From positions 1 through 64,000 of the forward strand of contig NZ_CAHOYM010000004.1 in NCBI RefSeq assembly GCF_903679515.1: a DNA stretch of 64,000 nucleotides, given 5' to 3'. A program made the translations under genes and the position numbers. The notes beneath the pieces are model-generated. The model was not told the DNA's origin. It saw only the letters and a list, made by a program, of their open reading frames with translations, and ran no database searches. The DNA comes from Bartonella gabonensis. Lineage in GTDB: Bacteria > Pseudomonadota > Alphaproteobacteria > Rhizobiales > Rhizobiaceae. Shown here one piece after another: positions 6,771 through 24,622 of this stretch. Positions within the stretch are counted from its first letter, which is position 1, and the number at the start of each line of letters is the position of its first letter.

Positions 6771-7433
6771 ATGACACAACAAAAAAATACACCGATTAAC
6801 TCCCCTCTTTTTCCTCAATTGGTTTTAACACTGGATGTTCGACGCAACACCCCGCACAGCTTTTTGCGTCCAATTTTGCAAACAAAGTCTTTTGCATGTG
6901 TCATCCTTTACGATTCTGAGAAGCAAAAAGATGATAGCTTTTTTTTACAACAACAGGCTCAAACCTACGCAAAAGATATTCAAAACAATGACGCCGCGCT
7001 TCTCATTGCTGATGACAACCGCATTGTGGGACGCATAAAGGCTGATGGCTTACACATAGAAGATGATCTTAGCGCTCTTGAAAGCTTTAAAAATCAGCAA
7101 AAGGAACAAAAAATCATCGGCTTTGGCAATCTACGTAATCGCCATAGTGCTATGATTGCCGCAGAAACAGGGGTTGATTATCTATTTTTTGGCAAATTAG
7201 GGGCTAATAAAAAACCCCATGCGCACCCCCGCAATATCCAGTTAGCCACATGGTGGTCAGAGATTATGGAAACCCCCGCCATTATTCAAGCAGGCAGCGA
7301 TTTTGCCACCTTTGATGAAGCCTTAAAGACGGGCTGTGAATTCATTGCCATAGAAGAAGTCATCTTTACCCATGACACCCCCTTATCTCTGCTTCAACTT
7401 TGCCACGAAAAATGTAAAAACATCCCCTTGTAA
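6771..7433 (+). CDS. ThiE/TenI-like protein, probably non-canonical
   Basis: 220 aa TIM-barrel protein of the thiamine phosphate synthase superfamily. Visible are the first strand (PQLVLTLDV), a central IIGFGNLRNRHSAMIAAETG and a phosphate-site-like GVDYLFFGKLGANKKPH around residue 140. In true ThiE that loop reads GPxFxTxTK; the T-x-T-K signature is absent, so thiamine phosphate synthase activity is doubtful. The genes thiE-like, Sel1-repeat, efp and suhB form a conserved rhizobial order that is interrupted here by accessory DNA. A decayed partial copy of its 3' end lies about 110 bases downstream. Confidence 0.75.
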   Translation: MTQQKNTPINSPLFPQLVLTLDVRRNTPHSFLRPILQTKSFACVILYDSEKQKDDSFFLQQQAQTYAKDIQNNDAALLIADDNRIVGRIKADGLHIEDDLSALESFKNQQKEQKIIGFGNLRNRHSAMIAAETGVDYLFFGKLGANKKPHAHPRNIQLATWWSEIMETPAIIQAGSDFATFDEALKTGCEFIAIEEVIFTHDTPLSLLQLCHEKCKNIPL

Positions 7434-7544: not shown

Positions 7545-7680
7545 ACACAAAAATTGCCCGCACCCTTCTTCAAACAGCAAGCGATTGTGCAAATTTTAAT
7601 AAAGAAACCGCCTGTGAATTCATTACCGTGAACGAAATCTTTTTACCCCTCTCAACAAACACGGGGGCTGATGTCATGAT
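7545..7680 (+). pseudogene. relic of the thiE-like gene 3' part
   Basis: Reading TAA-containing frames, this segment resembles bases 7272-7385 of the preceding gene: GCAAGCGATTGTGCAAATTT against GCAGCGATTTTGCCACCTTT, then the near-identical TGTGAATTCATT followed by similar sequence up to ATCTTT. At protein level SDCANFNKETACEFITVNEI matches SDFATFDEALKTGCEFIAIEEV. It is a non-functional tandem partial copy with no start codon of its own. Confidence 0.7.
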
Positions 7681-7800: not shown

Positions 7801-8010
7801 GTGTCTTGGTCGTATACGCAACGACCAATAGGGATCTAAAAACCCGAAACCTAAACATGAATTTACCCCGCTTTGCGGGTATCCCGGAATTCCGGGCAAT
7901 TTTGTTATGTCCAAGTGCTTACCAGCACTAAAAGCAAAATGCTGATTTAGGTTCAGTGTTTTTAGACTCCCGGAATACTCATGCGAGGGCGCTCGCAACC
8001 GGCGGGAGGG
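7801..8010 (+). ncRNA. Brt-type regulatory RNA, copy A
   Basis: Structured leader-type RNA about 200 nt long directly ahead of a trp-type HTH gene, as known for the Bartonella regulatory transcript (Brt) family. Visible helices are TGGTCGT/ACGACCA (7807-7827), the palindrome CCCGGAATTCCGGG (7883-7896), AGTGCT/AGCACT near 7911-7927, a long-range AACCTAAA/TTTAGGTT (7848-7855 with 7946-7953) and GCGAG/CTCGC (7983-7996), which sits just ahead of the ribosome binding site. It is about 80 percent identical by eye to copy B at 12228. A candidate promoter is TTGTAA (7767) with TTTACA (7788). Exact ends are inferred. Confidence 0.8.
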
Positions 8011-8013
8011 AAA

Positions 8014-8384
8014 ATGCAATCTCAAAATCAAAATCTTAATATCGACCTTTTGGTCGGCAAAAAATTCGCTTGAGACGAAAATTGCTAAAAATGTCTCAAA
8101 CAACTCTAGGCCATGCTTTAGGCTTAAGTTTCCAACAAATCCCAAAATATGAAAACGGTTTAAATCGTGTAAGCGCGGGGCGTTTAATGGAAATTTCCGA
8201 TATTTTGAATGTTCCAATTTCCTTTTTTTATGCGGATATCGCCACCAAACAACAGCCTTCATATGATCATGATGAAGTCATCTCGAACGCAGAGGAATAC
8301 CAGTTGCTCAAAAGATTTAGAACGCTCACCACTGTAAAAAGAAAAGCCTTTTTACAGCTCATCACAGATGAGAATGCAAGCTAA
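8014..8384 (+). pseudogene. Trp-type HTH regulator with -1 frameshift, copy A
   Basis: The true start is ATG 8014, preceded by a strong GGCGGGAGGG. Translation runs MQSQNQNLNIDLLVGKKFA and stops at TGA 8071-8073. Shifting back one base at the A6 run (8059-8064) restores IRLRRKLLKMSQTTLGHALG and an XRE-type HTH of about 123 aa ending at 8384 (SFQQIPKYENGL, GRLMEISDILNVPISFFYAD). A TTG at 8070 opens the second frame but has no ribosome binding site. The second copy at 12441 has the same lesion, so either both descend from one broken gene or slippage on the A-run is part of expression. Confidence 0.75.
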
Positions 8385-8708
8385 AATCATGTGAGTACCA
8401 CAGGCTCTGTTTACCCTACAGGCTCTGTGCATCTGCATACATCATAAACATCCCCCAAAGAGCAGTGCTTGAAAATTTATTGGACAATCTGCAGGAGCAC
8501 CCCATACAATCATTTCACTTCATCTGTTAAGCATAAGCTTTAAATACCATGAAAGATGATGATCGTTATATTGTTAAACAAAAACTTGACGAGATACCGA
8601 CACGTGATAGCATAATAATAGAGAAGTTTCTTTTCTTAATCTTGTGCAAGAACTTTCTTAAGAAAAACGAGTCAGAAAAATTAAAAATGATAGAAGGGGG
8701 GAATGAAG

Positions 8709-9116
8709 ATGTTAAAATATTTATTTCTGTCACAACTTTTGTTAGCGGCTGGTTGCGCATCTTCAGGGAGTTATGTATCAAATTACGTTGATCAAAATCT
8801 TGTGGAGAAGGATATAGAGACAAGATTAATCGAAAAATATCTTGCTAACGGTGTCAAAAGATCTTTACCATTAAATCCAACCGTACTTCCCCTCTTATAA
8901 AATGATACAATAGACAGCTTTACGCCTTTATTTACTGATCTGTCGCGGCGAACTGGATAAAATGTGATTTATACAGATCACCCCCAAAAGCAGCAAAACA
9001 TGGGGGTGGGTTTGTTTTACTCACGAACACCAAGGATGATGGACGTATAATTTCTATGCTTCAGGAGGATTGGTCTGGAGAACCAAGTATTATCTACGCA
9101 TTTATCAGAATAAATA
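8709..9116 (+). pseudogene. TrbH-like lipoprotein gene, broken copy
   Basis: The first 64 codons give a lipoprotein N-terminus (MLKYLFLSQLLLAAGCASSG, lipobox AAGC) closely matching the intact copy at 11251, including YVSNYVDQNL. The frame then stops at TAA 8898-8900, where the intact copy reads on through LLIKKNDTADNFTPLF; a few bases are missing here. Homologous sequence continues past 8900 (CAAAAGCAGCAAAACATGGG at about 8988 is shared) to about 9116 with further stops. A purine-rich GGGGGG lies 9 bases before ATG 8709; ATG 8703 is an alternative. Confidence 0.75.
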
Positions 9117-9549
9117 AACCAGCTCTTTGCATATAGACATTCTCTCTATTTCAAACATAAAGACTTAGAAAGTTTTTGCAAAAAATAAAGAAATTTTCAC
9201 CTCATTTTAAAGGCTCTCACAAGTGCTCCTACACGCTCTCTTCTTCTCAATATTGCGCGTTCTTCATAAGTAATTCATTGCGTACTTTAAAAGTAGCCTC
9301 ATTATAGACGCTTTTTCATTGTAAGATGGGTAATTTATTAAAAGAAGATAGCCTCTCTAGGTCATTCTTTCATCATTGTTGTTTAAAATCGCACTGTTTA
9401 AAAAACTCTGGTTCTTATAACATTGATACACTTTTTATAAACCCACCTTAACTGCCATAAAAAATAAGAGCGCAATGGTGTCCTTATACGGCTTGTAATC
9501 ATGAAAAAAAAATGTGAAAATTCTGACCGGTAATGAGGAGGAGATATCG
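9117..9549. other. gap between TrbH-like relic and Sel1 gene
   Basis: About 430 bases without a gene. The first part (about 9125-9210) resembles the sequence after the intact TrbH-like gene (about 11665-11740), showing that the duplicated block extends beyond the coding part. The rest should hold the promoter of the Sel1-repeat gene. Confidence 0.5.
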
Positions 9550-10593
9550 ATGATCAAGAGAAGTGTTAAACTGCTTATCCTAGGAATGATGGGGCTTGCA
9601 AATTCTGTTGTAAATTCTGCTGGAAACACTGAAGAATCGACCAGTTTTGAAAACTCTTTCAATACGATTCAAGAATCTTCAAAGCCAGAAAAACCTTTTC
9701 ACCCCTTAAAAGCTGGAGACTATGACCAAGCTTATGACTATTACATCCAAGGCTATTATTTAAAAGCTTTTCAAGAAGCGCTCCGGCGTGCTGAAAAAAA
9801 TGATCCTTTTGCCCAAACGCTTCTTGCCCGAATTTATATGGAAGGATGCGCTGTTCCTGTTGACGGAGCGCGGGCTGCTTTATGGTTTGAACGCGCTGCA
9901 AAACAAGGGGAACCGCAAGCCCAACTCCGCTATGGACTTATGTTGTTTGATGGTCATTTTGTAAAACAAAATCAAGAACTTGGTGAAAAGTTTATTCAAA
10001 AATCTGTCAACGCAGGCGTCAAGGAGGCCTATTTTTATTATGGACAACTGCTTCTTTATAAAGCCTCACAAGAAAAACAAAATCTCCCTGGCGTCTCTTT
10101 CCAAAGCCGTGAAAATGAAGCCATCGAGCAAGCTTTAAAATGGCACTTAAAAGGGGCTGCCCTTGGAGATGCTGAAGCTGCTTTTGCGGCAGCAAAAATT
10201 CTTTCCTTAGGCACTTTAAATCGACCAAAAGATGATCATAATGCCCGCAAGCTTATGGAAATCGCGGCTCAAAACAATCACTTAAAAGCTCAACTTCATT
10301 TAGCACAATGGCTTATACAGGGCCGTGGAGGAGAACCAGATTTTGACCGTGCTTTTCATTTGCTGCTTCACAATGCCAACAACATGATCGCCCCCGCACA
10401 GATTTCTCTTGCAAGACTTTATCGAGACGGCATTGGAACAAAAGGCGATACAATCATGGCAGCAGCATGGTATATGCTTGCGAAAGAAGCAAAAATGCAA
10501 GCACCTGATCTTGAAACAATGCTCCAAGGTATGGACGATACACAACAAGAAGAGGCGCGCAAAGAAGCAATAAAGCTTCTTCCTGTTTTTTAA
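9550..10593 (+). CDS. exported Sel1-repeat (TPR-like) protein
   Basis: 347 aa from ATG 9550, chosen because GAGGAGG lies about 8 bases upstream. A signal peptide is seen at residues 1-25 (KLLILGMMGLANSVVNSAG). From about residue 60 the protein carries four or more Sel1-like alpha-helical repeats: FAQTLLARIYMEGCAVPVD, AQLRYGLMLFDGHFVK, KAQLHLAQWLIQGRGGEPD and AQISLARLYRDGIGTKGD. Such solenoids usually mediate protein-protein contacts in the envelope. In related genomes the gene lies between the thiE-like gene and efp; here accessory DNA flanks it on both sides. The partner is unknown. Confidence 0.88.
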   Translation: MIKRSVKLLILGMMGLANSVVNSAGNTEESTSFENSFNTIQESSKPEKPFHPLKAGDYDQAYDYYIQGYYLKAFQEALRRAEKNDPFAQTLLARIYMEGCAVPVDGARAALWFERAAKQGEPQAQLRYGLMLFDGHFVKQNQELGEKFIQKSVNAGVKEAYFYYGQLLLYKASQEKQNLPGVSFQSRENEAIEQALKWHLKGAALGDAEAAFAAAKILSLGTLNRPKDDHNARKLMEIAAQNNHLKAQLHLAQWLIQGRGGEPDFDRAFHLLLHNANNMIAPAQISLARLYRDGIGTKGDTIMAAAWYMLAKEAKMQAPDLETMLQGMDDTQQEEARKEAIKLLPVF

Positions 10594-10775
10594 AACGCCT
10601 TTAACAAACTTAAATTTTGCGGGGCACAAATTTCTTTCAGAAAGGCAGCATCAAAAGAATAAACAAAAGGGTGCTTTAAAACATGGAAGGGCAACACAAT
10701 AACAACGCCATACTCTAACGGCGCCATGCGGCTCTTTCGGCTCAAGCAGGCAAAAAATACCTGCTCTTGAAACAA
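10590..10775 (-). pseudogene. possible C-terminal gene relic, opposite Sel1 gene
   Basis: A 61-codon open frame on the minus strand abuts the Sel1 gene tail to tail. Its last 45 residues (for example YGVVIVLPFHVLKHPFVYSF) read like genuine protein rather than random translation, but there is no start with a ribosome binding site and the upstream region is closed. I do not recognise the family. It could equally be chance. Confidence 0.25.
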
Positions 10776-10785
10776 TGCCCCCCCT

Positions 10786-10816
10786 CCTCACATATTCACC
10801 ACCCATTCTTATAAAA
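10786..10816. repeat. 31-base repeat, copy 1
   Basis: CCTCACATATTCACC followed by ACCCATTCTTATAAAAA; nearly the same sequence recurs at 14491-14521. Both copies border the accessory segment between the Sel1 gene and efp, so they may be traces of its insertion or of a duplicated boundary. Confidence 0.5.
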
Positions 10817-11250
10817 ACATCACATGTGCAAAGTCTTATGCCTTACCACACAACATTTCAAACGATAGCATTTTACAACAAACAGCATAAGCACTTATTC
10901 ATATTTAAAAAAGGGAGCCTTCAAAAAGCAATGTTTGAAAATTTATTTGGTCGATCTAGAGCAACACCTAACACATCATTGTTATAATGGTGCCAGAAAA
11001 CGTCATCTTAACATACAAGCGCAAAAGATTGCTCTTTTATCGCACTCCCCAAAAGCAGCAGTTTATTTAAAATATATGCTGCAAGAAACACTTCAAACAG
11101 CCTTAAATTCAAGCTAGAACCATTATCCATTAATGAATTACCGATTGTTTGGAAATCGATATGTTGTTAGTGTAGTTATGAGCGAAGTTGTTCTTATTCC
11201 TAATATAGAAACTTCGCAGAAGAGGCTGACAATATTGGGGGAGAGTTAAG

Positions 11251-11661
11251 ATGTTAAAATATTTATTTCTGTCACCTATTATAGTGGTAGCTGGTTGCGC
11301 ATCTGTAGGCAATTATTCATCAAATTATGTTGATCAAAATCTTACGAAGCAAGAAGCAAAACTCGTCGCTAACAATTTTATGAGCGATATCAAACGATCT
11401 TTCCCACCAGCAACAACCACACTTCTTATAAAGAAAAATGATACAGCAGACAACTTTACCCCTTTATTTATCGATCTGTTGCAACGGAATGGATATCGCG
11501 TAATCTATACAGATCAACCTCAAAAGCAGCAAAACATGGGTGTGAATTTGATTTATAGAATAAGATTAAATAGTACAACTATAGTGTCTGTTTTTCAATA
11601 TAGTGTGGATGGAGAGCCACGTACTCATATAAGTACTCGTCCTAGATTAACCCGCCATTAA
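11251..11661 (+). CDS. TrbH-like conjugation lipoprotein
   Basis: 136 aa lipoprotein: hydrophobic N-terminus with lipobox VVAGC (Cys16), then NYVDQNLTKQEAKLVANNFM, SFPPATTTLLIK and DLLQRNGYRVIYTD, the layout of TrbH, a small lipoprotein of P-type conjugation systems that pairs with TrbG in the outer membrane. ATG 11251 has GGGGGAG at 6 bases. No other trb genes are present, so it is a stand-alone remnant of a conjugative element or a reused surface lipoprotein. A broken duplicate lies at 8709. The family call rests on motif pattern only. Confidence 0.6.
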   Translation: MLKYLFLSPIIVVAGCASVGNYSSNYVDQNLTKQEAKLVANNFMSDIKRSFPPATTTLLIKKNDTADNFTPLFIDLLQRNGYRVIYTDQPQKQQNMGVNLIYRIRLNSTTIVSVFQYSVDGEPRTHISTRPRLTRH

Positions 11662-12227
11662 TGTGAACATTCTCTATTTTCATACGTAAAAATTTAAAAG
11701 TTATTGCGAAAGACAAAGAGATTTTCACTTCAATAAAAAACTTGTTTTTTAGACAGAATGGATAAATTTTATTACATATTGTAACGATACAAAATAGTAT
11801 AAGTTATGGCTTTAAGATTTAAAGAAAGTAGAGTACTAGAAACAATGAAAAGTACTCTACACCCTAGCAAATTACTATGCGAAGATGTCAATGCAAAGCT
11901 TGGTTTATCTATGATTAAAGCACCTGAATAGCTCGCTATATCTCGTGTAGCATTTTCTAAAGTATCGATAAAAACCCTCATCACGACATAATTCATGAGC
12001 AAAAAAATTCATTGGCAAGAAAAAGCGCTGTATCATTTGCTGAACACTATCCAATAAAGCAAAACAAGCTAACCGCAACACTGTAAATATTATCCTCCGG
12101 ATATGGAAAGATCATAGGAACAAAAGAGCGCTGCCTTCTTTTCCATTACATAAAAAACACAGCGCCTCTCATTCAAAAAACTATTTTTTATTGCCAATTT
12201 CTTGAAATTACTTTATGAGTTAAAAGA
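11662..12227. other. intergenic region before second Brt RNA
   Basis: About 565 bases. The first part parallels the sequence after the broken TrbH-like copy. From about 12155 (GCCTCTCATTCAAAAAACTA) the sequence matches that upstream of copy A of the RNA, with a 22-base piece missing. No gene is supported in between. Confidence 0.5.
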
Positions 12228-12437
12228 TGTGTTGGTCGCATACGCAACGACCAAGAGGGTCTTGAAAGCCCGAAAATCTAAGCATGAATTTATCCCACTT
12301 TGTGGGTATCCCGGAATTCCGGGAGTTTTTGCTATGTCCAGGTGCGTTTTCGCACTAAAAGCAAAAAAAGCTGATTAGGTTTCAGTACTTTCAAGCTCCT
12401 GGAATACTTATGCGAGGGCGCTCGCAACCGGAGGGGG
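12228..12437 (+). ncRNA. Brt-type regulatory RNA, copy B
   Basis: Second copy of the structured RNA. TGGTCG/CGACCA, CCCGGAATTCCGGG (12310-12323) and GCGAG/CTCGC near 12413 are conserved. The long-range helix persists as AATCTAA with TTAGGTT through a U-G wobble. ATTCCGGGAG (12316-12325) can alternatively pair with CTCCTGGAAT (12396-12405) over ten positions. Differences from copy A fall mostly in loops or preserve pairing, which supports a selected RNA structure. It ends just before GGAGGGGGC, the ribosome binding site of the following gene. Confidence 0.8.
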
Positions 12438-12440
12438 CAA

Positions 12441-12804
12441 ATGCAATCTCAAAATATTAATATCGACCTTTTGATTGGCAAAAAATTCGCTTGAGACGAA
12501 AAATGCTAAAAATGTCTCAAACAACTCTAGGGCACGCTTTAGGCTTAAGTTTCCAACAAATCCAAAAATATGAAAACGGCTTAAATCATGTAAACGCGGG
12601 GCGGTTAATGGAAATTTCCGATATCCTCAATGTTCCGATTTCCTTTTTTTATGCCGATATCATCACAAAACAACAGCCTCCATATGATCATGATGAAGTC
12701 ATCTCGAACACAGAGGAATACTACTGCTCAAAAGATTTAGAACGCTCACCTCGATAAAATAAAGAGCCATTCTACAGCTCATCATGGACGAGAATGCAAG
12801 CTAA
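12441..12804 (+). pseudogene. Trp-type HTH regulator, copy B, two frameshifts
   Basis: ATG 12441 follows GGAGGGGGC by a few bases. The frame reads MQSQNINIDLLIGKKFA and stops at TGA 12492-12494 after the same A6 run as in copy A. The -1 frame continues with an XRE HTH (SFQQIQKYENGL, GRLMEISDILNVPISFFYAD). A further one-base loss near 12720 replaces the family C-terminus QLLKRFRTLTT with YCSKDLERSPR and an early stop. The original stop corresponds to TAA 12802-12804. It is therefore more decayed than copy A. Confidence 0.8.
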
Positions 12805-13113: not shown

Positions 13114-13677
13114 TTATTCATCATTTGAAAGATTGTCATAAGAAGCAGATAATTTTAGTTCATAGGTTCGTACGAATGCTACAGATTGATCACCTTTGAA
13201 GAAAAGTGCAGGATTAACCCAATACTGGTTACGCAATTTGGGTTTTAAAAAACCTTTAGCTATAAGTTCTTTTAAGCCATTGTGGAATGTTCTGTCAGTC
13301 ATATCAGACTTTTCACCATTTAAGCCACCATTAAGCCAAGATAAAGTAATGCTATCTGTTAATTGAGTAGATTGATATATTTGAAAAACCTCTATGAAAA
13401 TACGATATCCCGTACGGGTTAAGTTAAAAGTTTTTCGAAAATTTTCAATAAATGTTTCTACAAAGTATTTTTCATCCGTTTTTACAATCTCTTCAGCTTT
13501 TTCCTCAGCAATATGAGACAAATGTATGCGAACAACTTCATGTGTATTAGGATTGTTAAGTTCTTGGTGCTTAACATTTGTTATAACAGTTTTACCACAA
13601 ATGCGTATTTGATGTTTATTAAGAAATGGATTTTTTATAGGTGAGTATTCTAACTTTCGCAAATTAATATTGTTCAT
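13114..13677 (-). CDS. RepL-like plasmid replication initiator
   Basis: 187 aa from ATG 13677 (GGTGGA about 8 bases upstream); a GTG at 13716 would add 13 residues. The C-terminal half resembles RepL-type initiators, small winged-helix proteins of plasmids and phages: TGYRIFIEVFQIYQ, MTDRTFHNGLKELIAKGFLK, then NQYWVNPALFFKGDQSVAFV followed by RTYELK. The gene faces a broken paralogue across a 180-base region rich in inverted repeats. It lies in the accessory segment between the Sel1 gene and efp, so it is likely a trace of an integrated plasmid or phage. The family call is from motif memory. Confidence 0.6.
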   Translation of the reverse strand: MNNINLRKLEYSPIKNPFLNKHQIRICGKTVITNVKHQELNNPNTHEVVRIHLSHIAEEKAEEIVKTDEKYFVETFIENFRKTFNLTRTGYRIFIEVFQIYQSTQLTDSITLSWLNGGLNGEKSDMTDRTFHNGLKELIAKGFLKPKLRNQYWVNPALFFKGDQSVAFVRTYELKLSASYDNLSNDE

Positions 13678-13757
13678 TATAACTGTCCACCAAGAATTTT
13701 TAGGCAGCAATTTCACTCTTGTAACAAGCCATCAAATACAAAAGAAATAATTTTATA

Positions 13758-23428: not shown

Positions 23429-24622
23429 CTAAAGCTGCATAAGAGCAAGAATTCCAGGCAGAGCCTTTCCTTCCATCCATTCCAAAAAAGCCCCTCCTGC
23501 AGTTGAAAGATAAGTAAAATCGTTGGCAACACCAGCATGATTAAGGGCAAAAACCGTATCGCCTCCTCCGGCAATTGAAACCAACTTTCCCGTCAAACTG
23601 CGTTCTGCGGCATAGCGTGCAACGGCAATTGTTCCTTTATCAAAGGGAGGCATCTCAAAAACACCAAGGGGTCCATTCCACACAAGGGTTGCAGCCTTAT
23701 CTATCACGCTATTGATATAGGCAATAGAGCGCGATCCAATATCCAATATCATACCATCTTCAGGAATATCACCAATATCATAAAGACGATGCGGAGCATC
23801 TTTTTCAAAGCGAAATCCAACGACAGCATCCACAGGAAGCAGAAGCGTACAGTGACATTGTTGCGCTTTTTTAATGATTTTTTTTACCGTTTCCATCAAT
23901 GCGTGTTCACACAGTGATTTCCCCACTTGGATACCTTGCGCAGCTAAAAAGCTGTTGGCCATCCCCCCCCCAATCACTAAGGTATCGACTTTTTCCACCA
24001 AATGATTGAGAACAAAAAGCTTACTGGAAACTTTTGCTCCTCCCACCAGTGCGACCACAGGATGCGTTGGATTTCCCAGCCCTTTTTCTAAGGCCTGCAA
24101 CTCACCTTGCAGCGATCGCCCCGCATAAGAGGGCAACAAATGCGTTATTCCCTCCACCGAAGCATGAGCACGATGAGAAACCGAAAAAGCATCATTGACA
24201 TAAAGATCCCCATTATGGGCGAGAGCCTCAGCAAAAGAACAATCATTCTTTTCTTCACCGGCATAAAAACGAACATTTTCGAGCAATAAAATACCCCCGT
24301 TTTGCAATGCCTCCACCGCGTCCTGCACCGTAGCACCAATACAGTCAGGAGCAAAAGCAATGGGCTGTTTCATGATATTTTCCAGTACTGGCACAACAGG
24401 GTGGAGTGAAAATTCTGGCTCTACCTTTCCTTTCGGGCGTCCACAATGAGAAAGTAGAATAAGCTTAGCTCCCCGCTTTTGCAGCTCAACGAGTGTTTCT
24501 TTATGTCGTTGAAGACGCGTCTCGTCACAAACTTTGCCCAATGCCATAGGAACATTAAAATCCACACGCACAAGAACACGTTTGCCCAAAACATCAACAT
24601 CATCAAGCGTCCGAAACCCCAT
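23429..24622 (-). CDS. pgk: phosphoglycerate kinase
   Basis: 397 aa from ATG 24622, preceded by GAGGA at about 9 bases; in-frame codons further upstream would add 14 residues foreign to the family. It transfers phosphate from 1,3-bisphosphoglycerate to ADP. The N-terminal motif GKRVLVRVDFNVP, the hinge GGAKVSSK and the nucleotide loop near GGGDTVFAL are present. It lies about 385 bases after gap, so a promoter of its own is possible. Confidence 0.97.
   Translation of the reverse strand: MGFRTLDDVDVLGKRVLVRVDFNVPMALGKVCDETRLQRHKETLVELQKRGAKLILLSHCGRPKGKVEPEFSLHPVVPVLENIMKQPIAFAPDCIGATVQDAVEALQNGGILLLENVRFYAGEEKNDCSFAEALAHNGDLYVNDAFSVSHRAHASVEGITHLLPSYAGRSLQGELQALEKGLGNPTHPVVALVGGAKVSSKLFVLNHLVEKVDTLVIGGGMANSFLAAQGIQVGKSLCEHALMETVKKIIKKAQQCHCTLLLPVDAVVGFRFEKDAPHRLYDIGDIPEDGMILDIGSRSIAYINSVIDKAATLVWNGPLGVFEMPPFDKGTIAVARYAAERSLTGKLVSIAGGGDTVFALNHAGVANDFTYLSTAGGAFLEWMEGKALPGILALMQL

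Follow-up and report, generated by a model that had tools for sequence, protein, structure and literature searches.

The closest described counterparts of the elements treated here are the Brt RNAs of Bartonella henselae Houston-1. According to the parts of the primary report that we consulted, nine Brt RNAs of 194-203 nt each lie 10-18 nt before a trp gene for a helix-turn-helix (HTH) protein of the XRE type, and the RNAs are restricted to Bartonella (PMC5387305). Brt1 is reported to be one of the RNAs of highest abundance in B. henselae, trp mRNA is scarce, and antisense knock-down of Brt raises badA, which the authors read as action in trans (PMC5387305). A review, likewise consulted in part, reports that removal of the brt1 3′ end raises trp1 mRNA (PMC8070961; also PMC5387305 for Brt and trp levels), that a reporter behind brt1 (brt1-gfp) rises as heme falls, a reporter response and as such distinct from direct binding, and that the badA promoter is a binding target of Trp1 (PMC8070961). 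Brt1 has been tied to adhesin expression and biofilm in B. henselae, and Brt RNAs may act in cis or in trans. Here we describe two Brt/trp modules in bases 1-64000 of contig C4 (the window) from a Bartonella genome assembly of 121 contigs totalling 1.97 Mb. We lean towards reading Brt as a leader of trp with two exclusive conserved folds, the balance of which, and with it the making of Trp, would be shifted by a signal; the copies at this locus would be relics or serve as RNA only. The modules contain the following features.

7801-8010, plus strand: Brt RNA copy 1, the leader of trp (matched by covariance model R1; minimum free energy −73 kcal/mol, z −4.18)
8004-8010, plus strand: ribosome-binding site of copy 1, GGGAGGG, read from the sequence, with an ATG a few bases on at 8014
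8014-8384, plus strand: trp copy 1, broken; the ATG frame has 19 codons and ends at TGA 8071-8073, and a TTG opens a 104-aa HTH frame at 8070-8384
12227-12437, plus strand: Brt RNA copy 2 (matched by R1; z −3.02)
12430-12437, plus strand: ribosome-binding site of copy 2, GGAGGGGG, with an ATG a few bases on at 12441
12441-12804, plus strand: trp copy 2, broken; the ATG frame has 17 codons, followed by an internal TTG frame at 12491-12757 and a further frame break

The first-pass annotation had described two segments of about 210 nt with conserved helices directly before ribosome-binding sites (RBS) and HTH genes, and had assigned them to the Brt/trp family. The segments hold up. Both leaders fold better than their shuffles, none of 200 being as good for copy 1 and 2 of 200 for copy 2, and R1, a covariance model built from an alignment (A1) of 114 related leaders, matches 7801-8014 at 246.9 bits and 12227-12443 at 240.8 bits, scores that are not independent since both window copies are among the 114. 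A search of the whole genome with R1 found 12 copies, with the window pair scoring best. The repeat blocks of both leaders and the HTH sequence downstream are 80-91% alike. There were no Rfam matches above the gathering score in the window, and a search of a phage collection gave no match. With strict filters, Brt occurs in 40 of 61 genomes of a genus sample, in up to 34 copies, and in none of the 197 non-Bartonella genomes among the 199 of an order sample, so the family is confined to Bartonella and varies in copy number. One Brt lies on B. grahamii plasmid pBGR3, in agreement with the "26 and one plasmid" given in the consulted part of PMC5387305. The aligned copies include named B. tribocorum and B. 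grahamii records and pBGR3; B. henselae Brt1-9 themselves are outside the alignment. The family assignment is thus supported by layout, size, genus restriction and the pBGR3 copy, with putative leaders of Brt size, judged by covariance-model match and position, standing just before the RBS and ATG of trp.

The likeness to B. henselae Houston-1 extends from the multi-copy, Bartonella-only arrangement of a ~200-nt RNA directly before an XRE-type HTH gene to the presence of damaged genes, trp8 being a pseudogene there (PMC5387305) and trp being broken here. The difference is that both window trp genes are broken, and that the consulted parts of PMC5387305 make no mention of two folds, divergent homologues or a tie to sel1. 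The family was therefore known and rightly recognised; what appears to be new, as read from sequence comparison, is the two-fold architecture, its tie to an intact trp and its deep homologues. No account of these turned up among the papers listed for Brt structure and for Brt of Bartonella from insects, subscription papers being mostly beyond the reach of the search.

The two-fold architecture was derived from 114 rows, drawn from 176 BLAST pieces by keeping distinct, near-full leaders with enough flank (115, then 114) and dropping shorter or truncated copies; one genome may appear under two locus identifiers, which were left unmerged. The helices that matter most are given here by their positions in copy 1.

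7835-7842 with 7959-7966, plus strand: long-range helix Hi (covarying columns 37-46/186-193; 6 of 8 pairs changed on both sides)
7848-7855 with 7946-7953, plus strand: long-range helix Hii (covarying columns 55-64/173-180; 7 of 8 pairs changed on both sides)
7883-7896, plus strand: hairpin P4 followed by a T-run, terminator-like and in mid-Brt (93.8% of cells paired)
7890-7898 with 7967-7975, plus strand: alternative helix Pb (98.1% of cells paired in the 114 sequences)
7983-7996, plus strand: 3′ hairpin P7, just before the RBS (90.9% of cells paired, no both-sided change)

Hi and Hii together show both-sided change in 13 of 16 pairs. Their strands differ between copies yet mostly match their own partner, in 91.8% and 86.3% of cells, respectively. 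The helices that exclude them are kept in the same 114 sequences: hairpins P2 (94.4% of cells) and P6 (95.9%), whose loops are the strands of Hi and Hii, and Pb, which excludes P4 by a shared strand and crosses both Hi and Hii. Copy 1 has lost two outer Pb pairs. Fold A would accordingly be a long rod of Hi and Hii with P4 inside, and fold B would consist of the local hairpins P2 and P6 plus Pb, which would take one P4 strand together with a segment able to pair with the RBS. The structure that was counted comprised Hi, Hii, P1, P3, P5, P6, P7 and Pb (57 pairs, 6400 cells). In it, 94.1% of cells are paired and 27 of the 57 pairs have changed on both sides; compensated cells number 442 against a shuffle mean of 163, with 0 of 500 shuffles as high, and controls with slid pairings are 32-49% paired. 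The plain RNAalifold consensus picked Pb and missed Hi and Hii. In the column-pair scan that found the latter, the two top-ranked pairs, like many further down, do not correspond to base pairs, which is what shared ancestry would lead one to expect. Mutually exclusive pairing linked to a downstream gene, as in a riboswitch, is thus conserved in this family, and the covariation-based model names the helices to test.

A distant version of the same arrangement lies in three further genomes (G006, G008 and G041), in each of which R1 matches one place, without a BLAST match, at 47-48 bits (E 5e-13 to 1e-12).

L112-L114, 1501-1732: very divergent Brt-like leader directly upstream of an HTH gene (three Bartonella genomes of a deep branch)

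Sel1 of these genomes shares 61-62% identity with the protein of the window, which places them on a deep branch. Each match sits directly before a G-rich RBS and an HTH_3 gene; a gene nearby is thioredoxin-like by its WCGPC motif alone. Helices P1, P2, Hi, Hii, P4, Pb and P6 can all be written in the deep homologue with other letters, and three of these (P2, P6 and Pb) are absent from the model that found it. There, Pb is GACCGGGGG with CCCCCGGTC and P6 is GCTA with TAGC, and, by eye, two Pb pairs that are invariant in the 114 differ on both sides. Since plain shuffling of the whole leader yields a perfect run of 9 in 11 of 200 cases, the weight of this observation is in the matching position and not in the length. 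Nine HTH orthologues of other deep-branching Bartonella genomes and four further loci showed no Brt-like leader (best E 0.29).

The pairing depends on the state of the linked gene. The 114 rows divide into 68 with an intact trp, 24 with a broken one and 22 without trp, where intact means an open frame of at least 100 aa with Trp similarity (two of the broken rows have 97 and 99 aa) and where the counts keep solo row L049, which is followed by masked bases, and broken row L024:150-363, which is followed by the locus end. The fraction of broken pairs is 0.032, 0.092 and 0.113 in the three classes. Scaled by divergence at unpaired sites, the excess of broken pairs is 2.1-fold, and 0 of 5000 label shuffles were as high, kinship being ignored. 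The least diverged class shows no difference (0.030 in 14 intact rows, 0.028 in 6 broken). At loci that hold both kinds of copy, the non-intact ones are worse in 14 of 19 (Wilcoxon p 0.0008). Since pairing is best kept where the linked trp is intact, this favours a leader in cis with a job tied to the downstream gene, and the loss of pairing after loss of trp is independent evidence for such a role, with which an added role in trans would be compatible. That Brt is mainly a trans-acting small RNA pairing with other mRNAs such as badA, its place before trp being secondary, seems unlikely to us. The great abundance of Brt1 and the antisense effect on badA fit it (PMC5387305, consulted in part), as do an unpublished pull-down mentioned in the part of PMC8070961 that we consulted and the 22 solo rows; the pairing, however, decays once the linked trp is lost, and the Hi and Hii strands vary between copies while matching their own partners, unlike a fixed targeting seed. 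A transcription attenuator, in which the 3′ hairpin halts RNA polymerase ahead of trp unless an antiterminator fold forms, is a stronger competitor, though we still rate it as the less probable course. It would account for scarce trp mRNA beside abundant Brt and for the rise of trp1 mRNA when the brt1 3′ end is removed (PMC5387305 and PMC8070961, both in part), and P4 with its T-run is terminator-like. In both copies, however, the terminator-like sense-strand element inside Brt is this P4, which sits mid-RNA, some 100 nt short of the inferred 3′ ends of Brt, and neither copy has a T-run after the 3′ hairpin P7/P8; better translation would also give more trp mRNA. As a separate observation, P4 and its T-run at 7883-7903 and 12309-12330 resemble an intrinsic terminator, and the T-run is one strand of P5.

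For the two-fold leader in cis, we propose that the Brt segments would be the 5′ untranslated part of trp mRNAs, transcribed from their own upstream promoter. A signal, which published work would suggest to be heme, would shift the balance between folds A and B and hence the production of Trp, a putative DNA-binding protein resembling phage repressors. When Trp is not made, the mRNA would decay and the stable leader would stay behind as the abundant "Brt RNA". In ViennaRNA calculations, which left one of the 114 rows unscored, fold B is favoured by 2.7 (sd 8.6) kcal/mol in intact copies, with the two folds within 5 kcal/mol of each other in 29 of 68. In solo copies they are further apart, fold B being favoured by 17.8 kcal/mol. 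A version of the switch in which fold B opens the RBS was rejected: an openness higher by more than 0.2 was computed for fold B in 0 of the 68 intact copies and for fold A in 21.

Several points weigh against the proposal as a whole. Hi and Hii, which ranked high when every pair of A1 columns was scanned without guidance, were found and counted on the same alignment. The sequences are related, and shuffles overstate significance. Within the 114, Pb and P6 show hardly any variation, and the three deep sequences, being almost the same, amount to a single event. The RBS is mostly closed in both enforced folds (open probability 0.31 in A and 0.19 in B over the 68 intact copies), and P8, the helix that masks it, has both-sided change in 1 of 7 pairs, in one sequence. 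A sign test on the 14 of 19 loci gives p 0.06. From the literature, again consulted in part, the antisense experiment was interpreted as action in trans (PMC5387305), and trp transcription did not respond to temperature or pH (PMC8070961).

Translational leaders with a masked ribosome-binding site, and orphan riboswitch candidates, have competing helices and a gene directly downstream. The leaders described here share this design, one of their competing helices using the RBS-complementary segment; they differ in that the computed opening of the RBS does not change as expected. It is possible, at somewhat less than an even chance in our estimate, that Brt represents an undescribed class of bistable regulatory RNA, in which the loops of P2 and P6 zip into Hi and Hii and the strand exchange from P4 to Pb is coupled to the segment facing the RBS of an HTH repressor gene, and which occurs on a deep branch of the genus (old, or transferred there) and on plasmids, often by parA, and has been amplified into arrays at a single chromosomal site of rodent-associated species. 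The comparison of Trp to phage repressors rests on an intact relative (L056), whose Trp has a Cro/C1-type HTH that matches P22 C2 at E 2e-4 and the DicA subfamily at 40 bits, below the cut-off of 101. The difference from those repressors is that the target reported for B. henselae is badA (PMC8070961, in part).

The HTH genes behind strong RBS that the first-pass annotation had listed are only partly that. The RBS are present and HTH_3-type coding sequence follows both leaders (E 2e-10 for copy 1, 1.1e-11 for copy 2), but both frames are broken, which had been overlooked, so neither encodes the intact small Cro/C1 HTH protein of the trp family. The well-initiated frames stop at 19 and 17 codons because the length of an A-run has changed (8059-8064 and 12480-12485). 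Intact relatives mostly run for 118-125 codons from the start behind the RBS, and here the HTH domain is carried only by the internal TTG frames; in copy 2, a second frame break lies close to the end. In copy 1, the HTH domain might be translated by reinitiation because the stop overlaps the TTG (TTGA 8070-8073). Elsewhere in the genome, the linked trp is also broken on C13 (two copies), C33, C26 (the first) and C16 (beside a Brt remnant), for a total of 7 of 8 Brt-linked copies when those cut by a contig end are left out. That every linked copy is broken was rejected, since the frame of the trp on C30 (L006), with GTG as its start, looks intact. Across the family, intact trp genes are under purifying selection (median dN/dS 0.23 for 66 genes and 1255 pairs).

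Whether the window modules are dead relics, with leaders and broken trp both decaying, we regard as evenly balanced. The two broken frames and the 7 of 8 broken copies in the genome argue for it, and the leaders argue the other way by retaining about 97% of the examined pairs, as does the stop/TTG overlap, through which the HTH domain could still come by reinitiation. Assembly errors in A-runs are a much less probable source of the breaks. By eye, several breaks of the genome do sit in A-runs; against this, 32 long open frames of the window hold 88 runs of at least six A or T without a break, a count biased by including open frames only, the C33 copy has an in-frame stop, and the break in the C26 copy, by eye, falls outside an A-run. 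On the strength of the unbroken runs, assembly error was rejected as the main cause. For the leader in cis, the locus then probably holds leaders that survive with a broken trp as relics or RNA-only copies while the linked trp on C30 looks intact, and a genome with most readable linked trp broken and leaders persisting is a natural test case. We also observed that solo Brt copies at L016, L044, L051 and L057 keep the RBS and ATG, followed by a seven-codon frame (MQTNKLN or MQINKLN) that recurs between genomes.

The surroundings of the modules combine a conserved chromosomal site with traces of plasmids.

9514-10593, plus strand: Sel1-repeat gene, a conserved neighbour between the two Brt/trp modules
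8703-8900, plus strand: TrbH-type conjugation lipoprotein, broken (by protein similarity)
11251-11661, plus strand: TrbH-type conjugation lipoprotein (by protein similarity)
13114-13716, minus strand: RepL-type plasmid replication protein, 43-57% identical to Bartonella and Paracoccus plasmid proteins
1-259, plus strand: C-terminal portion of a Trp-like HTH protein, truncated at the contig end

It had been suggested that the family expanded here, within accessory DNA that splits the thiE, Sel1 and efp order. The Sel1 protein led to 14 named Bartonella records, and in every one of them the interval from thiE to efp contains Brt and trp sequence, placed on one side of sel1 or on both. Each record has 2 to 8 full or partial Brt there, so that the window, with 2, is at the low end. 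Among 36 genomes of the genus sample, partly of the same species and overlapping with the named records (e.g., G035 and L055), Brt lies within 3 kb of sel1 in at least 28, the match used lying beyond 3 kb in 8; the 28 is a lower bound because one Brt match per genome was picked by hand among the matches listed. This is therefore a conserved site of the family, and a new or special expansion at the locus was rejected. The accessory part of the suggestion is half right: plasmid-type genes like TrbH and RepL are indeed here, but among the 14 records it is usual for Brt/trp to occupy this site.

The RepL-type gene is a putative chromosomal plasmid relic; its protein scores 14.7 bits against Pfam RepL, below the cut-off. 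Five Bartonella plasmids (L058-L062) carry one Brt-trp module each. On 4 of the 5, the annotation places a ParA-family gene no more than 0.5 kb from trp, which suggests a plasmid role for the module; on pBHa, no ParA-family gene is annotated in the stretch examined around Brt-trp. Among the matches listed, relatives of both the RepL and the TrbH of the window are found on 3 of the 5.

The third HTH tail noted in the first pass, at 1-259, is HTH-family coding sequence, its product sharing 58% identity with an intact Trp across residues 38-118, but contig C4 ends at base 1, so that it may be either a tail or a cut-off gene. A Brt copy at L008 (contig C26, bases 24141-24395) likewise runs into a contig end, and the repeats probably broke the assembly at such ends. 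Upstream of copy 1, a piece of a thiE-like gene at 7329-7371 is repeated at 7607-7649, and similar thiE remnants are present in several relatives.

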